64,000 nucleotides of DNA, from contig OX485809.1 in assembly GCA_950295325.1 (NCBI GenBank), positions 38,099,081 to 38,163,080 of the forward strand. The letters are read 5' to 3'. This stretch comes from Polytrichum commune. Its lineage: Eukaryota > Streptophyta > Polytrichopsida > Polytrichales > Polytrichaceae. The translations under genes and the position numbers were made by a program. The notes beneath the pieces are model-generated. The model was given only the letters and a program-made list of their open reading frames with translations. It did not search any database and had not been told where the DNA came from. Shown here one piece after another: positions 18,304 to 54,300 of this stretch. The number at the start of each line of letters is the position of its first letter. Position 1 is the first letter of the stretch.

Positions 18304-20195
18304 AATAAATGGTATTACGTATAACAATTGGGTGCAGTCAAATTGAGATCATGCACTTTATACCCCCCCCAAATAAACACCCTCTTGACACAAGTGTATA
18401 CCACAACACATAGTAGTTGTCCTCCCTAAGAACCTACCAAGAGCATGTGATCATTTTTTTTTTAAAATTTTTTGTAGTAGAAAGGCCACAATCTCAGCTA
18501 TTTTGAAAGATTATGAAAGCCTTCCTTTGTGCCCACACTAGAATACAACCACCATTATAGAGTGACATGGTATTGTGTTTCAACATCTTGCATTGTATTG
18601 TGTATGACTAATTTTTGCAAGGTTTTTCTACTGAAACTATAACTATAATTACATGTGTTGATGGGACCGGTGATCTTGATCACAAAGAGTTATCCACATC
18701 ATAGTAGGGTTGTGACATCTTCAAAGTACACATCACAACAATCAATCACATGTTGGAAGGTTATTATGTTGCTTGTATGAAAGAAAGCTAATAAGAAAAC
18801 ATCATATAACTAGTGCAAAGATATGGTTGTAAATAGGTCAAATTATTAAATCGTACATCTATGAGTCTCAACCAATACCATGGGGTGGGCACTACTAGTA
18901 CATTTTTCTCATAATGGTTTACAAATGGTCCTAGCAATGCTTCCCATGGCTTCCAAAATGATTTTGGAAACTCACCAAAAATTTACAAGTGTTCTTCTCA
19001 ATGCTGAGATGATCAATATTAACATTTGGATACTCTTAAATTACTCTTAAATTTTCCTTTATTTTTTTGAAAATATTTACAAAATGCCCTCAGACCGTTT
19101 TATAGGGCTTTACAAATGATTTTACAAATCTTCAAAAAAATTGGGATTAGTCACCTCGGTGCCTCAATGACTAATATCACCATTATGCATAAGGGAGAGG
19201 CATTATTTTTCTCTAGTATGTACATCTAGAAAGTTTATTAATTTTTTTGAAGTAAAGGTAGATGTATAGAAGGAGGACCTAAGGTTTAGAGAAAAAAACA
19301 ACAATAATGTGTTAGTTTCATCCAATTCATGTTTCCATGCATTGTTGTCATTTGGTCGTTGTTCTTAACGGTTAACATGTATATTCTTGTTAGGGACTGC
19401 ATTTGGGAGTAGGTTTTTACAAACTAGAGGCTCTTGGAGTGCTCATGCACTTCCTTGCTCTCTTTGTTTGTTTGATGCAATCATTGAGTTACATGCTATG
19501 AATGAAAAAAATAAAATTCAATGACTTTCTCATTGGAAAGTGAAAACGGACTTCATATGTGATAAATGCGTATTTAATTCATGACTTGCATTTTATATAT
19601 GTAGTGGAGGCGTTTATCACATTGGAATGAAGAAATCATTATAAATACACGAGTCCACTTTCTAGCATGCCATTAGTACATATACATTTGTCTTCTTTTT
19701 TTCTATAAACTTCTCGTATATAGGGGGTTTAATGTCAAAGTGACCCACGCATGTCATTTAGATTTCAAATGTGGAGTCTACCCCCCCCGGGTTGTGTACA
19801 AGCAAACATTTGAACAACATTGTGGATCCAACACTCACCACAAAACAATCAAGTCATCGATTCGATCGCATAGGGCATCAGATGGGGCTCTTTGACAACT
19901 CCATGGAAGAAAACACCCCAAGCCATCGAAGACCTCCATTTGCATTCCGAAGATGGAATGAGCTTAACTAAGAAGGTTTAAAAGTTAATTATATTTTTGT
20001 GAAAACTACAATAAGCAGTAATAATTGCTATTTGAGTTTACCACTAGGAGTTTCTTGAAGATGAAGTGTTAAGCGTGAGACATGATTTTAATTGCATGGT
20101 CAGGAGAAGCAATCCCCAAATCCAAGGTCGATGACTGTGACATAGTCTTGACTGGGTTCATTTTGATTAGCAACATTGTTGTTTAGGAGACTCCT
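18304..20195. other. AT-rich intergenic sequence
   Basis: I see no conserved reading frame, RNA gene or paired repeat. A short plus-strand ORF at 19771-19971 resembles nothing I know. Confidence 0.4.
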
Positions 20196-20213
20196 TGTGT
20201 GATACACTACCCA

Positions 20214-21800
20214 CATGGTGCAAGCGGAGTAAAGTGGACAACTCCTAATCCCTGCCTAGGTTCAAGTGACAATAATTTAAAACTGTACACTATCTTTGAA
20301 TTTTGGGAAGAATTTTTTTTATAGATATTCAAAAAAACATATTGATTTACAAAGCCAAACAATTCATGATGACAAAAAAATTCCAAAAAATTCCTACATA
20401 TTTTAGAAGACGGTGGACATGGTGTGCAAGTAGGTGATATTGAACAAGTGATTGTCTAAAGTTTGTTTAGAATATGATAAAGTTACATTAAATTGATGGT
20501 TTTTTTATTTTTTTTGTGATGATGACCTCAAATTTAAGGAATTCAAGGAATATGAAAAAATCCAACTTTAAAATATTTAAGGTCATGAAATTTATGTTCA
20601 AAACCAAATTCAACCATGTGCTTTTGAGCATCATTTTTAACGATAAGATTTGAAGATCTTAGCTTCATATTCTACGTTTGAATATTTCACTGTCGCGCAC
20701 CTCTCCATGAAGAGTGCCTGAAACACCATGGGCACAAGGGGGACCTTGGAGTGATACCCGGGACTTGTGGCGCCGTTGTTGAAAGGGCCCAAGTGATCCT
20801 AGTGTGGGTGAAGGCCCTGGGCGTTGGGAATGCCTCCCACCCACAGAGACTAGGAGTCATGAGGGTAAGGCCATCAACTATGCGTAGCTTGTGGCGTGCG
20901 GATTCTAGAATGCTTAACAACACCTCAATCGGAGGTGTGAGCTAGGAGATATGGCAATTTGAGCGGGCGCTGTCACGGAACAACGCCCTGGTACAGAGTT
21001 GGCTTGGGAGTGGCTCCCGGGATTGCCAAGGTTTGAACAAGCATAACTTCCTCAATACTTGCCCAAATGGGGCAAGCGAGGAGTTCATCGGTATCTAAAT
21101 GAATCGTAGATGATGATGAAGTGAACATCAGAGATCGTACAAGGGAGTTATGTTGTTCTGAAGCTGCTGGGGGCTTCCAGCCCCAACGGCTAAGGAAAAA
21201 TGTCTACTTGGCCCCATCTCTTAGTAGAGAAACAAAAGGTTTGTTAACGGTGGGGTAGGGACCTTGCTTAAAGTCCTAAAGGCTTCTATGGGTGAGACGG
21301 TGTGGCCAACCAAACCCACACGAGGCCGAATAGCACGGCCTCCACGGGCATTGGCCCAACGTGGGGACATAGTTGCCTAGTATGATTTGGGTTGTTATAG
21401 TATTACTCTGGCAACGCAATGATCAACTAAAGATTGGACTTCCATGAATTGAAATCCACATCTAAGCACTGGTTACCGATTAAGGGGAGAGTCCCGAATA
21501 CAAGAGTAGGAGGGTTGGTCCCCCTCTTAGACTAAGAAGTCTACAGTATGGGGAGCTAACCATTAGCATGGCGAAATGCAAAAGGTCAACGTTTGTGACC
21601 CTTATTAGAATTGAAGAATTATCAAGTTAGTTAAGGGACGCTAGCAAGGGTTGCGACATTAACACAACAATAGAGATCATCATGAAAGAAAACCCAATTT
21701 AAATAGTAATCTACTTTTAGGCCTCTGACAAAAAAAAAATAGAACATGATTTTAGTATACCAGAGCACTATGTTGGTCCACTTTACCATGCTTGCACCCT
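20214..21800. mobile_element. About 1.6-kb element with short terminal inverted repeats, class unknown
   Basis: The left end has GGTGCAAGC, two bases, then AGTAAAGTGGAC (20215-20240). The opposite strand of the right end has GGTGCAAGC, two bases, then GGTAAAGTGGACC (about 21771-21797). The interior at 20690-21640 is clearly richer in G+C than its surroundings and has no recognisable protein. No target duplication was confirmed, so the outer limits are approximate. Confidence 0.55.
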
Positions 21801-22211
21801 ACACATGTAATATGACTATAACAAAATTATTAATAGAGCTTTCTTGTGCAAATCATTGGTTTTCCACATGCGTTCGATTCCTGTTCACATCTCATCCATC
21901 CATGTTTTTTACTACACCGTGGTAGTATTTTTTGTTTGATTGTGGCGTGATAATTACTTGATGATCAAATATATCTACATCATTGGAAGGACAGAAAATG
22001 AGATTCTCATCACTTTATGAATATATCAAGACCCCATACTGATGCTAAGTCTAAATATAGGTTCATTTCTTCAGAGCTTGCAATATAACTTCAAAGCTTG
22101 ACTTGTTGCCAAGCTTTGGGAAAGCTCCTACACAATGAAAGACGTTATTGCACTTTGTGAACTCCGAATAGTAACACACACTAACTAGACAATTAGTGCA
22201 GTGATTCATTT

Positions 22212-22390
22212 GAGTTCATGAGATCCTATGTACTAGGTAGCGGTCATCTACAGAGTGGCTACTGGGTGTAGCAGGGGAGCAGAACCTGCCGAGTCGCGTC
22301 AGCGACGAGGGAGGTTCTGTTCACCTGCTACACCCGGTAGCCACTCTGGATGACCTGCTACCATACGTAGCCGATGAAGGATCTCAAAAA
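22212..22390. repeat. Large hairpin upstream of the tyrosine recombinase
   Basis: The arms 22236-22287 and 22312-22362 are reverse complements with few differences. They share CAGAGTGGCTAC, GGGTGTAGCAGG and CAGAACCT. The 24-base loop contains its own stem, GTCGC-GTCA-GCGAC. Outside the arms TGAGATCCT pairs again (about 22219-22227 with 22378-22386). It lies about 190 bp before the first candidate ATG of the recombinase. Confidence 0.85.
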
Positions 22391-22552
22391 TAGTTACCTG
22401 CCTACCAGTTACTACTAGGTACCTTCCTTGTTGGCGGGAGGTAGGAATTTCAAAAGTGTCACGCCGAGCTATCTCCAACACTTCTATTCTCAGTTTAGGC
22501 TTTTTGTGCTCTGTCAGTTCTGTCTTTGTTGTCTGCCAGTCTTGTCGCTGTC

Positions 22553-25500
22553 ATGGAAGGTAATTAAGAGGATGGTGACGTTGAGCAACATCAACCTATG
22601 CCGTCATTCAAGTTGTTTAGTGATGACGATGAGTTGGAGAGGCCGTTAGAAGTTGGTGCTTCAAGGGGTAGAAAGAAGGGACGTTCTGGCACCAAGTTTC
22701 GTGGATCTGGAAGGCGCAGTCGAGGTTGAGGACGAGGACAAGCTCCTGTGCATCGTGATTCACATGGTGTCGAAGAGATCTATGTTCCATCAGAAACATC
22801 TTTGTTGAATTCATCACAGTTTGCTTGTGGTGCAGATGGCGTTTTGTTGAGTGATAGCCATAATGTTGTTTCAAGTGTGCAAACTGTTTGTATTGACGCA
22901 CCTCCATCCTCAGATGTTCGTGTTGATGGTGTTGATTCGAACATTGTGAGAAGCAACACTATTCCCAATGTTTTGAATGCACCAGTGTTTGTGAACACTA
23001 CTGTGTGTGCAAATCTCACAACTGCTGCATCCGTAAATGCTACCTTCATAAATGGGACAAGAAGTGATGGCAATCCAAGCTCTAGTTCTGTGCATCTTGG
23101 GGAGGTTCCAGTGCATGCTAGTGAGTTTCCACTCCAAGATAGATCTTCACAGGACCTTGTTGTGCATGTGGCACATGCGATTGTTCCATCTTCCTCGGAA
23201 TTTCTGGATTTAGATCAAGAGGATTTCAATAGTGTCCAAAATGGCGATGAATCGAATAGTTACCAAAACGAGAGGTGGTGTATCAATAGATTTAATGCTT
23301 GGCGTAGGCACATGAATATCCCCACTGATATCCCCGTGGAAAAGATTCCACTACAAGAACTTGGTGTGATTCTTAGCAAGTTCTTTTTGATGGTTTGCAA
23401 GGTTGATGGCAGCAGGTATCCAACCGAGTCCATCAAAAACCTCTTGATGTCTTTCAATCGCATAATTCTAAGAGAGCAGAAAACTCGCATCAATCTGACT
23501 GGGAATGAGGAGGTTGAGTTCAATATTCAGAGGCATCCGTGGTTTATTAGTGCTTGTCGCGCCGTACAAAAGGCAATGACCAAAAGTAAGGATCTAGGGG
23601 CCAATAAACCTCGGAGGAAAGTCGATCCTCTAATTTATGAGCAGGAGAAGTTAATCTTGGCCCATCCTTTACATCAGGTTACATTTGCTCATGGGATTCA
23701 CAAGAGAATGGCCTTTTACTGTTTTATTGTCTTCCTCATCAGAGGTAACACTGAATTGTGGAAGGTAATGGTCAAGGACTTCACAATTGAAGTGGATCAA
23801 CGTGGACGTGAGTTCTTGAAGTAGGTGTCCTCTCTTCAGAATCCATCAATTTTTAGAATCTACAAGTGCCTTTGTTGTATCTGTATATGTGCATTAAAGT
23901 TCTGAGTATGAGCGTAATATTATTCTCATTTGAATGGCCTTTGGTCTTGAGGTTCAGAATGATGCATGACTAACAACTTCAGTAATTAGGTGTCTACAGG
24001 CCTGCTCGGAGTCTCAAACATTTTCGGTAGTTTGAGTATGAACATATTAACAATATTGATATGTTGTGCAGGTACGATGAGCGTACTTCAAAGAACCACA
24101 AAGTTACACTCAGCAGGTTCCAAGAGGAACACTTCAGGAGGCCAGTAGTTTCTTTCAATCCTGATGTAGTAGCCACATTTCGAGCTCTTTTGTCTCATAT
24201 GCCAACCAACTCAGAGCATGGTCATCTATTTCTTGCTGCAATTGTCAATCCACGCTCTAATATTTGGTTCAGAAGTGGCATCAATGTTGGTGAGTCAGCT
24301 ATGAGAAACTGGATGCGTCAGATGTGTAAGACAGTAGGTCTAGTTGGTGATTTTACTAATAAATCAGGGAGAGTGACTGCAATTTCACGCATGTCAGCAG
24401 GTATGGTCCCTAGAAAAGCAATCGCTTCAGTTACTGGTCATCGTGATGAAAAGACTCTTGAAAGGTACGATAGAACGTTGCAATTGCAACAAAACGCTGC
24501 CCAAGCTCTTTGTAGGGAACCTTACGATGAGGATGGTAATCCTCTTACATATGAAGACCATTATCGCAGGCAAATGGAGCATTACCATGCGCATGAAAAT
24601 GTGCTAGAGGATAGTACATCAGAACTTCCTCCCTCTCATGGAAGTGGCATCCAACAAGGTTTTGGTGGTCGACTCCAGATCCGATCTGCACCGGACCAGG
24701 TTGAGGAACAAAATTTTGTTTCTGAAGCTTTTGAGGAAGATGTTCATAATACGAGTGAAAATGATGATGAAATTGTTGTTTGTCCTGAAGTTCAAGAGTG
24801 TGGCCAAAATTTAGACGATCCTTCTATTCTCCCACCAACAAAGACTAGGAGATTTGATTCCACTTCGCATGTCAGATTCCAGGTTCCTCCTACTACAATT
24901 CCCCATGCAAGTGCCTTTCGTCCAAGTAATGTGCACAGTGCATTTCGTCCAGTAGCTTTTTGCCGACCTCATGTGCCGCCTCCAATATACAGACCTCAAG
25001 CGGCTCCATTGCAGAGGCAATTTTATACCCCTTCAAGGCCTTTTAATCATGTGTACAAACCATACGATATCTATCGTGATAGGGTTTTTGCTCCTCCGCC
25101 GAGGCCTATGGCTCCTTATCAACATGTTCAGTCTATTGGTCAGGCAAATCCCGGTAACATCAGGACAGGTTGCGGTAACATACCATATGTTGTGACACCT
25201 AATACGTCTACCCCGGAAGCTGTGTGGTTAGAGTACGTTAAAGAATGCTGGAATTATGAATGGACATCTTTTGAGAAAGAAGATTTCAGTCATCACATCC
25301 CGGCTACTACTGTTGATGCTGTAAATTTACCGTGTGTCCAAGCTGTTTCAAGTGGTCAATGTGCAGAAACTAATGATGTTAATCAGGTCATGCAAGATGC
25401 TGAGAGGAATAACCAACAAGTTGGTGAAGGAGTTGCAGTATTGAATCCCGTGGCATTGCAACAAGTTGATGTCCCTAGGCAAGCTGATGTTGGTCGAATT

Positions 25501-25617
25501 CAGTTCCATGCTGGAGTTCACCACCACTACAATATTGTTTTAGGCGATCCCATCTCTTTGTCAAGAGTTTTGGAGAATATATTCCAACGAACTGGACGTG
25601 ATGGTTCAGGGAATTAA
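22553..25617 (+). CDS. Crypton/DUF3504-like tyrosine recombinase, two exon blocks, probably decayed at the 5' end
   Basis: Two open blocks belong to one protein. The first, ending at 23821, has an acidic then Arg/Gly-rich N-terminus and, from about 23268, a core-binding-like region (WCINRFNAWRR, DGSRYPTESI, NLLMSFNRIILRE). It ends with the first catalytic Arg in FLIRGNTELW (23741-23743). The second (24072-25617) has the strand Lys (SKNHKVTL), Lys-x-x-Arg in TNKSGRVTAISRM, His in VTGHRDEKTL and the nucleophile Tyr in LERYDR (24466-24468). A Pro/His/Arg-rich tail of about 370 residues follows. Tyrosine recombinases cut and rejoin DNA through that Tyr, and Cryptons are transposons built on one. 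ATG 22553 is in frame, but TAA (22565) and TGA (22727) interrupt; both read as C-to-T changes. An alternative is an intron 22560-22730, which would restore the frame. The expected joint after FLK lacks a canonical donor, because TAG GTG follows directly. The family call is good; activity is doubtful. Confidence 0.8.
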
Positions 25618-27247
25618 TGCAGGAAGATTAGTGCAAACCCAGTGCAGGTATGCGATTGAATTAATTGTGCTGGCACCTTTGAGCATGGGTTGATCTGTAG
25701 CTAATTCCTCTGCCTGCATTAATTTGTGCAATGATCTGTAGCTGGTTGTTCATGTGCCTGCCTTACTTTGTTTTCGATCATCCTCCTGGATATAGATTGC
25801 ACCCTAGCTTGATAATTTCTGAAGCTAAATGTGTTTTTGGTGTGAATGGTTAGCATATTTTGTGTTTTGTTTTGTTTCGAATAATCTGTTTTGTTCCGGA
25901 AGTCTTTTTCAGCAATGTAATGTTGAGTGGAACTTTGAATGTATTTGCAGGTGGGTACATTGTCATGGGCTCCCGCACCTCTGGTAAGACTGAGGTGGCT
26001 ACCACCCCAGCTACATGAGACCAATTTGTTCCTTAGAATACAACAACACGTCTTCAGGTGTCATTCTGGAGGTCATTATGTGAACGAACCTCTGAATTTG
26101 AGCAGGATATGAGGTGCTTAGCTCATACTGCAAAAGAGGCCTTACCTGCCTCATGTTTTTAATCCATTTGGTAGAAAGAGGTGTTTGAATATAGTGTATT
26201 AATGCACTATTCATTTGCAAGCACCCACCCGATGGTTTTGGAAGGTCCTAGAGCTAGAATAGGCTGTCAATAGATGTTGCATTAGACCCCTAACCTGTGA
26301 GGTTGATTGGACCTTGCTCCAGTCCAAGTTCCTTGGATCAACACTAGATTCATGCAAAAGAACACATAAGCTTAGTAGAGGAGATGTTTGTGCTTTATAT
26401 GGCATCGATCTTGAGCATCCAAGATGTCAAATGGTGGCTTGTGCACTCTCATTGTCAATTCTGAAATCATTCATCAGATGCTCAACAAAAATAAAAGCAG
26501 GGGGAGAAGTATGTAAGCACCCCTTGTCGTGTCTCCTGGTAAGTGTTGGGTTCTATTTGTCTCTGAATTGTCAATTGATCTGGTATTAGTGTAGTTGTAC
26601 ATCACTTTTTTGGTAGTTAACCAATTTGAAAATCCATGGAATGATTCACAAGAGGTTTAGCCTATTGGCTAGCAAACTGTACCATTGGTTTTTGTGTACC
26701 TGAGCTGTTTGATTGAGGAAAGGCATACAAAAATTCTTGCATACTGCTGTGGAACCTTAATGTGAAGAGGTCACCTTTTTGCAGCAATTCCCTATTTGAT
26801 GGTGTTGGAACATGTGCAGATAAGATTTAAACCATTCTAGGTTCAATAGCTAATGCAATTGGGTAGGGTCTATATGATTGTTTAAAGTGAGAATATTTAC
26901 TTCGACCCCTTATAACTATTGCATCTCACCTTGATTCTGAAACTTGCAATGACAATCTCCAAGCTGACGGATCAATCATTCCAACAGATTTCACCAGCTG
27001 ATGTGGCTAGGGTGCAATCGATCTCCAGGTGGATGATCGTATGCAAATTAACGCAAGCACTGAAACATCTAGCTACCTACAGATCAATGCACAAATTCGA
27101 TAGTCCCGGCACACTTCACCGCAAAAAGTTCCAAAATCAAAGGCAGGGTGCAAGACGATCTCCAGAAGCACGATGAGCTACAACGGAGAGAAAGAGAAAA
27201 GATATTTGAAAATGGATTCCCGCCCATTTGGGGCTAATTGGTGTAAT
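25618..27247. repeat. 3' flank of the recombinase with direct and inverted repeats
   Basis: 25655-25760 holds two similar units built on ATTAATT(T)GTGC and GATCTGTAGCT. The segment 25721-25808 recurs inverted at 27006-27097 (shared AATTTGTGCA, TGATCTGTAG, CGATCATCC, GATTGCACCCTAGC), so 1.2 kb lies between inverted copies. No coding region is evident. Whether this belongs to the recombinase element is unknown. Confidence 0.6.
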
Positions 27248-27255
27248 AATCTAGT

Positions 27256-27665
27256 CACGGGTAGATCACTCCATTGTCAAGTTGAACACCACGTGCGACC
27301 AAAAAAAACCTTCTTTTGGTAAGTTGCACCACCAAAATGGGTCAAAATTTTATCAAAATTTTATCATGAGTAGATATGCACAGTACTTATGACATAGTCA
27401 AAAAAGGTAACTAAATTTGATGATTTGTTTTTTTCATAAAACATACCATTTCTAACTAGAATGACACAAAATTGAACTAAAACAATTACTAAAAAAAATA
27501 AAGATGACTAAAAATTTCAAAAAAGTATTCAAAAGATACTATCAATGGTTATGTATATGTAGAAAAAATATCATAAATTTTAAAATTATATATGGCATGT
27601 AATATAGGGGTAGCAAACTTTGTCCGCACATGGTGTCAACTTGACAATGAAGTGACCTCTCCGTG
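27256..27665. mobile_element. 410-bp MITE, CACGGG family, copy 1
   Basis: This is the reverse complement of the element at 63474-63882. It has TIRs of about 40 bp (CACGGG at the edge, CATTGTCAAGTTGA and ACCACGTGCG further in) and an exact 8-bp duplication AATCTAGT at 27248-27255 and 27666-27673. It has no coding capacity. The 8-bp TSD allows a hAT or Mutator-like origin. Confidence 0.9.
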
Positions 27666-28188
27666 AATCTAGTCCCACATGGTGAAAAGGGTAGGTAAGT
27701 AGGTCGGAACAAGTTAGGTAGGTCGCAACACAGTAGGTCGCTATGGTCTTGGACCGTCCAGTGGAGAGCCAATGGGACTTCGCCACATCAGCTTCTATAT
27801 CTCCAGAATCGGCTACGTAACACATACTTGACCCAACCAATGGTAAGATCCAGGAAAAACATAACTCAGGATTGTAGGATTGTAGATGTAAGCCTTGATT
27901 AAAACAAAGGTAATTGAGATTATTAGTTGAGGAAAAGGTTATTCAAGTTCAACTTTGTCAGTTTGCAAGAGCCCCTTTACTGGTTTGCATATGAGAATGT
28001 AGAGATCATCAGGCATCTAGTCCATGGTCTCAGGACCCTTGTAATCCATCCCAACCATTAATTCTATGCTTATATCCTGCTGAGGATAAATTGTGTTGAA
28101 ATCTAGCTATGAGCTATTTTTGACATGCTCCATATGCAAGCACATTAGAAAAAAAACTGTTTGTAGCTAAAAATGAACCAGATTGCAA

Positions 28189-28840
28189 CTATGTTCGGGG
28201 AAAACCGACGGCTAGTTCATTATCAGCCGATGGATTCCCCCTCATGGCCGGTCCAAAGTTCCAACCATCGGATGGCAATCCGACTGTAATTTCAATCCTC
28301 CGGCAATTAGCCGATGGACCAAAAAATGTCCCGGAAATGTAGCTGATTCTTCTTGTGAGTTACTGGATTTCAGCCGGAAGCATCCAGAGCGCTATTTGTC
28401 TGGGGCATCTGATGATGCACTTGAGGAAGTACCCTAAACCTTACACTTTTTGAATTATGCAACCTTTCCATGACCAAATCCAATTGCTTCTATGAAGAAT
28501 TGGGGGACCCTTGGCCTTCAAGCGGTGAAGGCATTGCTAGGTTCAATTCCTGCCAAGGATATTAACTCTTCAAATTTAAAGTTTTGAACATGCCTTTCTT
28601 TTCACTTATTCAAGACTTTGTACTAAGAAATGATTTCTAATAACTTTTCATACATTTTTAAACAATCAGTGCCGATATGAATTCCATTTAATATGATATC
28701 GGCCAATGAAAATATGAAAATATAGGCCGATTGATCTTACAAAAGACCGGCTGTTGCCGATGTAAATTGGAAAAAACCCGACCCTTCGTAGCAACTACCG
28801 GCAATTAGCCACTAAGGCTTCAAAAACTTCCCGAACTCTG
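28189..28840. mobile_element. 652-bp hAT-like non-autonomous element
   Basis: An exact duplication GATTGCAA flanks it at 28181-28188 and 28841-28848. The ends are CTATGTTCGGGGAA and, on the opposite strand, CAGAGTTCGGGAAG. The left end resembles the 226-bp elements at 30255 and 37590 (GGGGA, AACCG, TAGTT in order), so they are probably one family. The interior has many CCGAT/ATCGG palindromic pieces and no protein. Confidence 0.85.
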
Positions 28841-28848
28841 GATTGCAA

Positions 28849-29307
28849 TACCAATAAATAGACTCCAACAAGAATAAGTATTTCGCCATTGAGCTCACGC
28901 ACATGTCTAAAAGTCTGAGGACAACATCTCAAAATAGTAGTGGCCCATATTTAATGTTGAGTTAGTATTGATACTATCATTTCAGTCCCAACTTAACATT
29001 TAGCTGGTGATTTAATCGGCATTGATTCAACTCAACCTCTTATGTCTTACAACTGAAAAACACACAAATAAAATATCAACATTACAACCTTATGTTTCGT
29101 ATGCATCCATTCAATATTGTAGTTTGATGTGTAATCAATGTCGATATGCATCAATGTAAGCTGCCGCAGCGTGACTTCTGTTTAGTTTCCTCCTCCATCG
29201 GTGCCGTGTCTTCCTGACAGTCCAGAGAATGGCAATTCCATACACTTGAACCTACGCAACTTTGAGAACATCCGTTGGGTTAGAACATGCTTATGCACCG
29301 GATTTGG
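28849..29307. other. Intergenic sequence between MITE and MED15 copy C
   Basis: I see no gene or paired repeat here. MED15 homology begins abruptly at about 29308. Confidence 0.4.
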
Positions 29308-31241
29308 TGGACAAGTTAGAGCCCAGCCCAGAAGCCGGAGTTTGAATACCACTAGCTCCAACATTTGCCGGAATAGACTGAGCCAGCAGCTGTTGCTGCT
29401 GTTGTTGCTGTGATTGACCCCCCAGCTGGACTCCATTGCCCAATGTTTGTGCAGCATTCCGCATTGCAAGAGCTGCTGCAGAACGAGACCACAAAGATAT
29501 TTATTTCAACCTCTAGGCACAGAGCCGAATCCAAATGTATGTGGCTGCTTTACTAGACCTAATTGGAACCCCTGGACTGAAACTCTTCAACCACAATGTC
29601 ATCACCTCATCCCGAACAACTGCAGTGAATTCTCAACTGCAAACAACCACATTGTGATTCTTCCATTATTATCATTTGTTTGTCTACTATGTCTAGTCTT
29701 TCGCACTGACCTGCATCCACCGGTTTCATTGCTGCCTGACCTGCTGCCTGAGGCACTGGAACACCATCCCTGGCTTGCGATGGATTACCATTGGCCTTGG
29801 TCTCAAGAGACAGCATCTTCAGGGCGATCTTTCGAAGGTAGTCTTGCTGAAAGATACGCCAATCATTTCAGATACCGTTAGCTATGAAACCTATTACCAA
29901 ATCCTTTGAGATTGCCTACTTACGTTGGATAAACTAACGATAGAGAACATTTGAAACCTATTGTGATGCATGACCTGATCCGCAGAGAAAGCTTCTGTGA
30001 CCTCAACGAGCTGGCATTGTAGAGTACCTGGTCTGTTGCAGCCTGAAAGATCTTCTCTTCAAATCGCGATGCTATCATAAAAAGCTCGTCTACACCATCC
30101 TACCCTGCCACTGGCATGTGTCGTTGAAAAGTGTCCGTTCTGCATCAACAAGAAACAAAGCCAATTCCTACATTTCAATTACAACATGACTTCCCCACAT
30201 GATCACAGCCATTCATATGCTATGCTTAACCTCGGACTCCACCACCTCCATAACAACGATCGGGGAGAACCGGCAGTTAGTTACAGATGAACAGGTTGAG
30301 TTTGAGAAATAACCGGTTGAAGTTCAAGACTGCAGGAAAATTACCGATCATTTTAGAGGAATTCATAGAATATGCCCTAATTTAATAAAGGAAAACCGGA
30401 GGATGTCAACATATAACCGGTTGGACTTGCAAACATTAGGATCTCAACCGATTATGCCCAAAAATCTCCCCGATCACTGCTCCATAACCTGAGAACTGGT
30501 TCCAACATACCTGTACAATAAGTTCCAAACGTATACTTGAACAGACCATATTTTCCTTGCCCAATTTTGGTTATATTTCTAAAATATGAGGGAAACACAC
30601 AATCCCAACGCAATGCCTATTCTCGTAATCACACCTTTAAAATATCACAGGAGGGCCACGTATTGCGTTTGCCTGTATAAACTCTGTCAGCATATACTCT
30701 GTCTGCCTCGAACCACAACCTGCAACTCAAACTTACATTCTTTTCACTATTTTTAGACGAGAGCCATTTGTCAACGATTCCCGCCAGGAGTTCTCCATCG
30801 TTGAGGTCGCTCAATCAGACCCAACAATTTCTGTGCTTGCAAGGGATCTGTAGATGGTATGTTCCAATTTGTACTACCTCCAAATGAAAGGCCTAAACAG
30901 GGACAGCATACGGACAAACCAATCCACAAGCAAATAAGTAACAGCCATTATATCCGATTCCGAAGAAGAGAACTCTAAAATTTACACTCTCCAGTAGCCA
31001 ATGGCTCCCAACCTTCACAACACAATCTTTCTAGGCCACCAAATAAAGACCCCAACTTTGAAACCCTACTGGCACCGATCCAACCCGAACAGAGAATGCG
31101 TAATCGGATGAGCTCTGGCGATCAACTAGAGACCAATTGACGATAGAGGCCATGTTCAGACACCCAGAAATTCATCTCAAATCCGAAATGAGGAGATCCA
31201 TACACGAAGTGAGCAAACACTCAAATTCTTGGTAGTGCACT
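29308..31241 (-). pseudogene. MED15: MED15-like copy C, truncated and interrupted
   Basis: Minus-strand remnants match copy A exon by exon: 30798-30737 (MENSWRESLTNGSRLKIVKR), 30139-30028, 29846-29711 (QDYLRKIALKMLSLE) and 29475 to about 29308, where homology breaks inside the Gln-rich exon. The KIX exon has TAG at 30102-30100 where copy A has CAG, and the conserved MDTLQ has become TDTFQ. Splice positions are conserved. A 226-bp MITE (30255-30480) interrupts the first intron. Homology on the upstream side ends at about 31241. Two independent defects make this a pseudogene. Confidence 0.9.
30255..30480. mobile_element. 226-bp hAT-like MITE inside MED15 copy C
   Basis: The exact duplication TCCATAAC flanks it (30247-30254 and 30481-30488). 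Copy A has that site once, in CTCCATAACCTGAGAAC. Ends share GATCGGGGAGA in inverted orientation. A near-identical copy is at 37590-37814. Confidence 0.95.
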
Positions 31242-39455: not shown

Positions 39456-39465
39456 CTATGTATTA

Positions 39466-39763
39466 GGTAATCGTTTTATTGGAACTGGTTATCAGTGCAG
39501 AACCGGTTCTGTCAAGGTGGCGAGCCAGCTTGACAGAACCGGTTCTGCACCGATAACCGGTTCCAATAAAATGATTACCGGACGTAACCGGTTGGCCGCT
39601 TTGTTGAGCCGCGCAGGTGACCTAAACAGTGGGTCACATGTCACCATAACCGATTTAGATGATCATAACCGGCTGGGATGTCGAGGTTATCGTCTGCAAA
39701 CATGTGTGCTCAGAGCCAATCGTGTAGTGCCACCTCGGCAAAACAAAACGGCCAACCGGTTAC
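39466..39763. repeat. Nested AACCGGTT palindromes
   Basis: The arms 39466-39516 and 39529-39579 are 51 bases each, with 48 complementary positions and a 12-base loop. Two of the three differences are G-T pairs. Just outside, GTAACCGGTTGGCCG at 39584 pairs with CGGCCAACCGGTTAC ending at 39763. The block contains several copies of the self-complementary AACCGGTT. Confidence 0.9.
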
Positions 39764-39766
39764 GGA

Positions 39767-51318: not shown

Positions 51319-54300
51319 ATGGGAAGATTCAAGGTGGTCCTACTCCTACTGGGCCTTAGCAGTTTTGCCATGCATTTGAATTTTGCATCAGCACAAAACA
51401 ACAGCATCCCCCAGTACACTCTGGGTTTCTTAACCCCTGCAGCTGCCTCCGAAATCCCAACCAGCTTAGCTATTGAATGGTGAGTGCCAACAACTCCTGC
51501 TTCACATATCCAACATGATGAATTATGTGTGGAGTGTACAAATTTGGAAATCGGGAGTGTGTCAATGCACAAATAAGATAAATCTACGTTTTTTTCCTCA
51601 GGCAATGAAGAATTACGCATTTTTCTGTCCTCAAAGGCCTAGTTAACCCCTCAACGCTTTTGGAGCCATATTTGGGCCCCTCTCATACATACAACGTGAA
51701 TATACATAGTGATGTGAATTTTTGGTAGATAGGGACAGCTTGTTGTCTTGCAAAGTGACATTTCTTGACACTCGCACAAAGGAACTTCGAAAGAGTTTGA
51801 TGAAGATTTCATATCATCATGTCTAAAGAGAGAACACAACTAGTATGAAACTGCTAAGAGCATTTAGGGTCAATATGGAAATTCAACTTCGGGACATGAG
51901 AAATTGCTGGCCTGAAGCAATTTTAACCCTCTTCATGACAATTCTCCTATTGTCAAATACAACCTAGATTGACCTTTCTCTTAACATCATGTCACCGTGA
52001 CAGGCAATGAAGCATCAAGCCTTTGTCACCAGAAGAGGCTTAGTTAACTGATTAGGTCAAAGATTTTGCTAATACATGAGGTTAACTGCTCATACTGTCA
52101 AGTTTACACCATAGATTGATCTCTCTCTTAACACCATGTCACCATGACAAGCAACGACGTTAAGTATTTGTCATCATCAGAGGCTTAGTTATATGATTAG
52201 ATCTAATTTGTTGCTAACAGATCAGGTTAACTGCTCCTATTGTCAAGTTTATCATTATACCACAGATTGATTTCTCTCTTGACATGTTTCACCATGACAG
52301 GCAATGAAGAATGTAAGCCATTGTCATCATCAGAGGCTTAGTTAACTGATTATGTTCAATTTATTGCTAACAGATTGGGTTAAGTGCTCCTATTGTCAAG
52401 TTTATTATAATACCACAAATCTCTCTCTCTCTCTGTGCTTACCATGATGTTGTCACCCGTGACAGGGAATCTGCGTTCCGAGTGGCTGTGGAGGTGGAGA
52501 ATTCCAAACCTGGGCGTGCTTACAAATTGGTGCCTCACTCAGAATACAGTGATTGTGATTGGCAAACTGCATATCATGGGGCACAGGCAATTGCGACACT
52601 GGACACTAACACTTATCCTCCTGTCATTGGAGTTGTAGGACCAGCTTGCAGCGGGGCAGCCATGTCCTCTGTGGCACCCTTGAAACCCCTTAATATCTCC
52701 ATGGTCTCTTTTGCTGCCACTGCAGAGCCTATCACCGTGGACCGATCTTGGTTCTTCAATTTGTTCCGCACAGTGTAAGCCTCCTAGATCATTCAGAGCT
52801 TTTGGTTTTCCCATTAGACTTATCCTCTAACTCAACATGACTTTGGTCGGAAGTTGGTTAGATTGCATACAACATCTTCCATGTTTGGTAAGTTTCTGGT
52901 CCATGCTTTGGAGGTTTGTCATGTGGAGGTCTGAACAAGGACTATTGTATATTGGTTGGTTGAGGGTCAAACTCATTCTGGCATGCTGAGAGGTGCGAAA
53001 ATGAGTTTGGCCCTCAATGAACCAAACTAGGTTGCTCTTTATTCATATTCAAACACTACCTCAGAGCATGCACCACAATTGGAAAGAGATTATTGATATT
53101 GGATGCAAAACGATCAATGGAAAATCATAGAGGGACCAGCTCCTGATGAAAAGTCCTGTTGAATTAAAGGGTGACTCTAGCGAATGTCTGGAACTCCAAA
53201 ATTAGCCAGCAAAATTTTCATATTTTTTGATACCAGTAGGGTGTGGATATTTGAAGATATCTTTGTTTTTGGTGCTATTCTGGTCTACATAGCATGTAAG
53301 AACCTAGGAAAAATCGCCCTAGTATCAATATGGTTTGGAATGGTAATCACCCAAAAAATAAATAGGGTATACAATGATTCTCTCGCTGCCTTGACATACC
53401 CACCAAATATCAATATTTGACTAGTATTACAATTTTGATATCCACGGGTAGGTGCTTTGATACCATTATTGGTGTTGATTATTGATACCATGCATTCACC
53501 TTATATACCAGACTAACACTGGTCATTTCCTCCTGATATTTTGCAGCAATTCTGACTACATATATGCTGTTATGAAACAGGTACAATGACAAGTTTCAAG
53601 CACAAGCTGTTGCAGCCAGTGTACGTTGTTCACACGCTTTTCTTTTCTTTTTAAAATTAATTTTTTTTCCTCATGAACAATATTCGTATGACAGCTCCCA
53701 TAGCTGTAACCTTTTTCTTAAACTACTTTGAGTGTGCCCTGGCACTTTAAGGTAGATGTGTGTTATTTGGATACTTTTTTCTTTGCACTCACTTCTTGTA
53801 GGATATGGAACACATTGCAATTAGTGCGAGATTATTAGCAAATCCAAATCATGCCTGTTGCCATTTGCCTCATAATTTCTGGAGCTTGTATGATTGTCTA
53901 ATTCGCTATCAAAGCGAAGATTCTCATGCTCATTAATTGATCATATAGGTCCTGTCACAAATCATTTGACTATCGAGCCTAGAATGGTTAGCATATTTTG
54001 AGCATGTAATCCAATCTCTTTTTAAACACTTGATGCCTTTTGGTGTCCATTCTTAGATCCACACCTAACTACATACCACTCAAAACATAGGTGCCAAGAT
54101 TATTGTTGTGTTGGAAGTAGGCATGTCTACATTAACTGTGGATCTCAGTATATCAGAATGAAAATAGAGCCTGGCTAGTTACGCTCTTTTAGCATGCTGA
54201 CACTCTTGGGGTTGTTGGTTACAGATTGCAAAGTTGAATATGACTAGCGCCACGCTTATTCATACGAAGCAATACTATTCGGCCAACTTAGCCCAAGACA

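Follow-up and report, generated by a model that had tools for sequence, protein, structure and literature searches.

A tyrosine recombinase (YR) gene in a plant genome raises the question of whether it belongs to the host, to a contaminant or to a mobile element, and, if the last, where that element ends and how it might move. The answer is of general interest because end and target recognition by eukaryotic YR DNA transposons is poorly known. We studied a 64-kb stretch of Polytrichum commune DNA (hereafter the window), whose + strand carries two long frames in the ORF list (22730-23824, 364 aa; 24031-25617, 528 aa). An earlier note had joined these, from the letters alone, into a Crypton-like recombinase gene spanning 22553-25617.

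The window gene encodes a tyrosine recombinase

Both frames were found as placed, but the reading frame begun at the proposed ATG at 22553 is interrupted in the window copy by the stops TAA (22565) and TGA (22727), and the mobile unit turned out to be wider than the gene (22230-27817). The motifs that had been claimed are all present in the order of tyrosine recombinases, and an alignment of four family sequences showed the catalytic set to be invariant: R in LIRG, K in TSKNHK, KxxR in NKSGR, H in TGH and Y in RY. Box II of tyrosine recombinases usually has H, whereas in the present element K stands there. The tail of exon 2 is rich in Pro and His as judged by eye, and it had no match in Pfam. 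Also by eye, the C-terminal ends of families A, C and D (defined below) are similar, for example NVFHFHVHDPFEL and NVFHGNISNCTIQL, and this shared tail is possibly a small conserved element.

The PHROG integrase profile phrog_1 matched the window sequence with E=4.4e-9 and matched 4/4 family members, Pfam Phage_integrase matched 3/4 (best E=3.4e-5), and the PDB integrase 3nkh was found with E=4.8e-4, the aligned part spanning the KxxR, H and Y region. The match to integrase profiles is beyond chance and confirms that the window protein is a tyrosine recombinase. The further claim that it is most like the DUF3504/Crypton group held up less well. The proposed HMM comparison did return both DUF3504 and the phage-integrase model, but DUF3504 matched one of four members (family D, E=0.0014-0.0038, under the curated cut-off), as did QRICH1 (family A, E=0.05-0.14, best 0.053), and all Pfam scores displayed for these YRs fall under curated cut-offs. 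Kinship with DUF3504/Crypton is thus weakly suggested at the sequence level. A genome search with PF12012 gave no match, nor did it in the control genomes, so that it carries no weight, and a phmmer search of PDB with protein P0002 yielded weak irrelevant matches only. Relatives were confirmed neither among viral contigs (37 pattern matches) nor among 84,980 prokaryote genomes (49 pattern matches).

The recombinase gene is present in many copies

The assembly measures 408 Mb in 64 contigs. Its contig C8 carries rbcL and accD of plant type, which bears out the reading of a plant-type genome; this rbcL matches PDB Rubisco large subunits along its whole length (best 9chz), and we take the accD/rbcL type to be bryophyte-like. 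At least 34 loci match the YR (exon searches gave 33 and 34 matches, with both exons in 16), these counts being lower bounds in which some loci match only segments beyond the YR domain. The loci are distributed over C1-C4, C6 and C7, six chromosome-sized contigs, with the window on C7.

Loci with readable ends fall into four families, A-D. Family A comprises five long copies (the window copy, L016, L017, L018 and L019) plus 5' pieces, and is 97-99% identical to the window copy over aligned parts. Flanks are unrelated among its copies save for L016 and L017, which lie 32 kb apart with common flanks and were therefore counted as one insertion. In-frame stops interrupt exon 1 of every one of the five long copies; L018 and L019 have, in addition, deletions that change the frame. 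The four copies of family D (L030-L033) are 98-99% identical and 2875-3199 bp long. Both frames are open in L030 and L032 (494 and 249 aa), L033 is broken, and L031 (C2:64877113) is shorter, the right hairpin arm and the start region being missing; because of the latter, only two family D copies were counted as open. Family B elements measure 3208 and 4440 bp, and family C has one copy, L045, of 4191 bp. The position of the predicted intron differs between families D and A, and predicted introns are retained in element copies. The end search at further old loci found palindromes without a convincing pair at L047 and L044, decayed ends at L044 and L027, and no readable ends at L046, L048 and L049.

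The element has a hairpin end and an inverted copy of its right end

As far as can be judged from sequence, window positions 22230-27817 are one copy of a YR-encoding DNA transposon (Table 1). The earlier note had not described where exactly the element ends, its hairpin and target, the inverted right-end copy or the non-autonomous derivatives.

Table 1. Positions of the element, its parts and neighbouring features in the window
Feature	Position	Strand	Remarks
Target flank TAT	22227..22229	+	Adjoins the left end; consensus TAY-G-W
Left terminus G-TACTA	22230..22235	+	Crossover G and one internal-loop strand in the folded circle junction
Imperfect palindrome, 127 nt	22236..22362	+	Inner hairpin
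ATA	22363..22365	+	Second internal-loop strand (in silico fold)
CGTAGCCGAT	22366..22375	+	Right-end sequence in inverted orientation; makes up the outer stem and is shifted inward by the hairpin
YR exon 1	22553..23820	+	N-terminal region, core-binding-like region, catalytic Arg; start is the ATG of the earlier note
Predicted intron, 251 bp, GT..AG	23821..24071	+	Predicted from sequence; bridges the two long frames
YR exon 2	24072..25617	+	K, KxxR, H, Y, then Pro/His-rich tail
3' region	25618..27807	+	No Pfam-recognised gene; two other family A copies differ over about 25864-27666
Nested TIR insertion	27251..27665		Later event, outside the YR element proper; TIRs TCACGG../..CCGTGA, duplication of 6-8 bp; the L016 copy lacks this insertion
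Right end ATCGGCTACG	27808..27817	+	The shared G is its last base
Family B derivative, B-N type, 305 bp	39460..39764	+	Non-autonomous; elsewhere in the window

Families A-D share one plan, in which the left end G-WAYTAG is followed by a palindrome of 76-127 nt (A 127, D 116, B 76 and C about 101 nt), a few bases and then the right-end sequence in inverted orientation, while the right end itself reads YWACG. The inverted right-end complement is CGTAGCCGAT in A, CGTTAAAGGACCG in D and CGTAACCGGTTGGCCGCTT in B. We compared 39 insertions (11 long elements and 28 derivatives; L017, the one-sided L022 and the window derivative at 39460-39764 were left out). The hexamer after the left G was TATTAG in 23, TACTAG in 13, AACTAG in one and a variant in two, and the right end was TTACG in 25, TAACG in 8, CTACG in 4 and a variant in two. 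An anchored right-end complement of at least 10 nt (10-23 nt), no more than 250 nt from the left end, was present in 28/39 insertions, compared with 0/2000 random window pairs, where the longest was 9. The perfect 10-nt outer stem is missing in 11/39 through mutations, L031 being minus one hairpin arm. Rfam gave no match over window positions 20000-30000.

Two further structures were seen. A near-perfect, isolated family A left-end palindrome lies in L026 at about 1065-1140 (C1:28596561-28596638), beside an inverted copy of the L022 left flank, L022 being 9.3 kb away; perhaps it records an abortive event. At 51944-52432 the window contains a tandem repeat of about three copies with a unit of 145-153 bp.

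Short derivatives keep both ends

A search with the family D left end found five short copies (D-N), all of which hold both ends within 256-266 bp. The family B right end gave 219 candidate places, 40 of which were scored, the two full copies among them; the B-N derivatives that were fetched keep both ends in 23/23 cases and measure 359-412 bp. In the window derivative, which has its interior deleted relative to L050, the left flank reads ..GGCTAT/G and the right flank /GATGC. Derivatives also occur on contig C5. The recombinase would mobilise such short derivatives, which retain just the hairpin end and the right end.

Insertion occurs at TAY-G-W with a single shared G

Alignment of the 39 insertions gave the target TAY-G-W, with T at -3 in 27, A at -2 in 31, T in 28 and C in 7 at -1, and T in 26 and A in 10 at +1. 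The bias was significant at each of these four positions (p <= 4.1e-7), and no significant bias was detected at -4, +2 and +3. Left flank and right end are loosely alike (TAYG versus YWACG). The left-side suffix equalled the right-side prefix for 0 or 1 base in 30/39 insertions, for 2 bases in four, 3 in three, 4 in one and 6 in one, the last being L031, where a 7-bp repeat ATCAACG is found on both flanks.

Natural empty sites show the crossover directly. Over five insertions with clean empty-site paralogs, 13/14 paralogs had exactly one G between the flanks (L016 3/4, with L042 the exception; L032 1/1; L066 2/2; L056 2/2; L072 5/5), and in these the target supplies every base on either side of the G. 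At these five sites the event was a simple insertion sharing one G, without a longer target-site duplication. Paralogs were not clean at three insertions, namely L075 (0/5, the base being T or C), L018 (four, gapped at the junction) and L031 (one, gapped), and a comparison among retrieved loci yielded no empty site. Since element sequence begins directly behind the G at left ends, and the right flanks carry the element's TACTAG or TATTAG in 0/39 cases, there is no sign of heteroduplex overlap. A crossover confined to one point is at odds with enzymes of the Cre/Flp type, whose overlap is 6-8 bp.

The ends, if joined, are predicted to fold into one long hairpin

Joined at the shared G, the right and left ends fold in silico into a single long hairpin, whose small internal loop coincides with the crossover. 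Fold energies were -58 to -78 kcal/mol for A, -78 to -86 for D, -56 and -71 for B, and -59 for C, and ten junctions from the four families had z-scores from -7.3 (C) to -19.2, each against 200 dinucleotide shuffles. Stem sequences are unlike between families, and the conserved part of the loop is its left strand, G-WAYTAG. In the family B stem (26 sequences, 64 pairs) 90% of the cells are Watson-Crick versus 15-33% with the partners slid, while compensatory double changes occur in only 2/64 pairs (24:2 and 25:1). Features of integron attC sites are thereby present: the palindrome, an unpaired internal spacer (in the fold) and a crossover at the outer-stem edge (in the empty sites). Inspection by eye shows that inverted arms around a 6-7-bp spacer can also be read at the circle junctions of A, B and C, and not at that of D.

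At the hairpin tip a direct repeat, GGCRAGCC-YG-N(2-3)-GGGCRAGCC, was seen in 13/23 B-N and 5/5 D-N derivatives and in L030, L032 and L045. This apex motif is missing from family A and from the full B copies, and the hairpins that host it are otherwise unrelated.

Discussion

From the analysis of ends and insertions, we think it probable that this Crypton-like YR transposon exchanges one strand at a folded end, in the manner of integron attC sites. The element would leave as a circle, and its junction would be recognised in the form of a folded strand. Cutting at the G by the recombinase would then allow one strand to be swapped with a TAYGW target, and host replication would resolve the outcome, by analogy with integron attC sites. 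We favour this model because the single-point crossover at the base of the palindrome resembles that of integron cassettes, and because mosaic junctions are absent. Had both strands been exchanged, heteroduplex overlaps and a share of mosaic junctions would be expected, and the 39 insertions showed neither. Integron cassettes recombine through a single folded strand, whose structure counts for more than its sequence (PMC2727003).

An ordinary Crypton-type route, with a double-stranded circle, a two-strand Cre/Flp-like exchange and a palindrome that adds recombinase-binding sites or forms a cruciform, seems to us rather unlikely, even though several observations speak for it. Movement as a circle has been proposed for Cryptons, and the usual YR site combines two arms of 11-13 bp with a spacer of 6-8 bp (both PMC3212892), to which the inverted arms read at the A, B and C junctions may be compared; the target TAYGW is also like the element's own TACGTA. 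Family D, however, keeps the fold without such arms. The base at -1 is mostly T in targets and C in the element, so identity at this position is not needed, and mosaic overlap was absent from all 39 insertions and from the five with empty sites.

Much less likely is descent, as a relic or a derivative, from a DIRS-type YR retrotransposon, in which an internal complement of the joined ends circularised the cDNA. Its inner arm and inverted right end are indeed complementary to the joined termini, and the internal complementary region of DIRS elements follows the same circularising logic. DIRS-type elements are moreover harboured by Viridiplantae (PMC4157794), but they carry a reverse transcriptase (PMC4157794; PMC3537659), and profile searches found none in the 3' ORFs of the window element or in the family D protein. 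Units of families D and B are as short as 3.2 kb, and the predicted introns retained in the copies favour a DNA rather than an RNA intermediate. Least credible of all are domestication as a host gene and contamination. Although some divergent single-copy loci have open frames, recent, near-identical copies at unrelated flanks point to a transposon lineage, one of the two origins that the earlier note had offered. Domestication, the other, sits badly with the multiple copies and with lesions in every long family A copy. YR copies on six chromosome-sized contigs and derivatives on a further contig likewise speak against contaminating DNA.

How the element relates to known systems can be considered from its sequence. 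Membership of the Cryptons, compared here as CryptonF, S, A and I (Kojima and Jurka 2011, PMC3212892), is partly borne out. As in Cryptons, the YR is the sole recognised enzyme (profiles of the given ORFs found no reverse transcriptase), copy number is low and there are non-autonomous derivatives; the termini TATGG of CryptonS recall the TAYG insertion motif (PMC3212892). Cryptons are described, however, as having terminal direct repeats of 4-6 bp and as lacking inverted repeats (PMC3212892), whereas in the present element a single G is shared, the right end recurs in inverted form and there is a hairpin. The same 2011 survey finds Crypton boundaries hard to define, and its Table 1 names fungi, animals, oomycetes and a diatom as hosts, and no plant (PMC3212892).

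The attC sites described in PMC2727003 share with our element the palindrome, the unpaired central spacer, a variable terminal structure, a crossover at the outer-box edge and a structure that is kept while sequence varies. Integron cassettes are bacterial and without an integrase, whereas this is a eukaryotic element with its own recombinase, and use of a single strand, shown for attC (PMC2727003), is here inferred. SE elements, strand-biased circularising integrative elements, also use a YR and are reported to circularise one specific strand; they are bacterial, have four shared genes and leave no empty site in the donor (PMC9345347). Starships are YR-driven too and sometimes have inverted repeats, but these giant elements occur in fungi, carry cargo and have a captain with DUF3435 (PMC12134995), a domain that was not found here. 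The open-licence literature on plants yielded no description of such an element. A plant repeat database carries automatic 'Crypton' labels (535 in one table column; PMC8729191), and on Cryptons and bryophytes PMC11630846 offers general remarks.

We tentatively put forward, as a possibility short of an even chance, that these families are a eukaryotic transposon group apart from the described Cryptons, which moves by exchanging one strand, much as integrons do, at an end folded from single-stranded DNA, and which has given rise to a YR MITE family of high copy number in a land plant. The 39 insertions and natural empty sites fix the ends, target and crossover to the base, and the minimal derivatives of 256 bp are possible assay substrates. 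The finding adds land plants as hosts and, if folding is used, would extend folded-end YR recombination beyond bacteria and phages.
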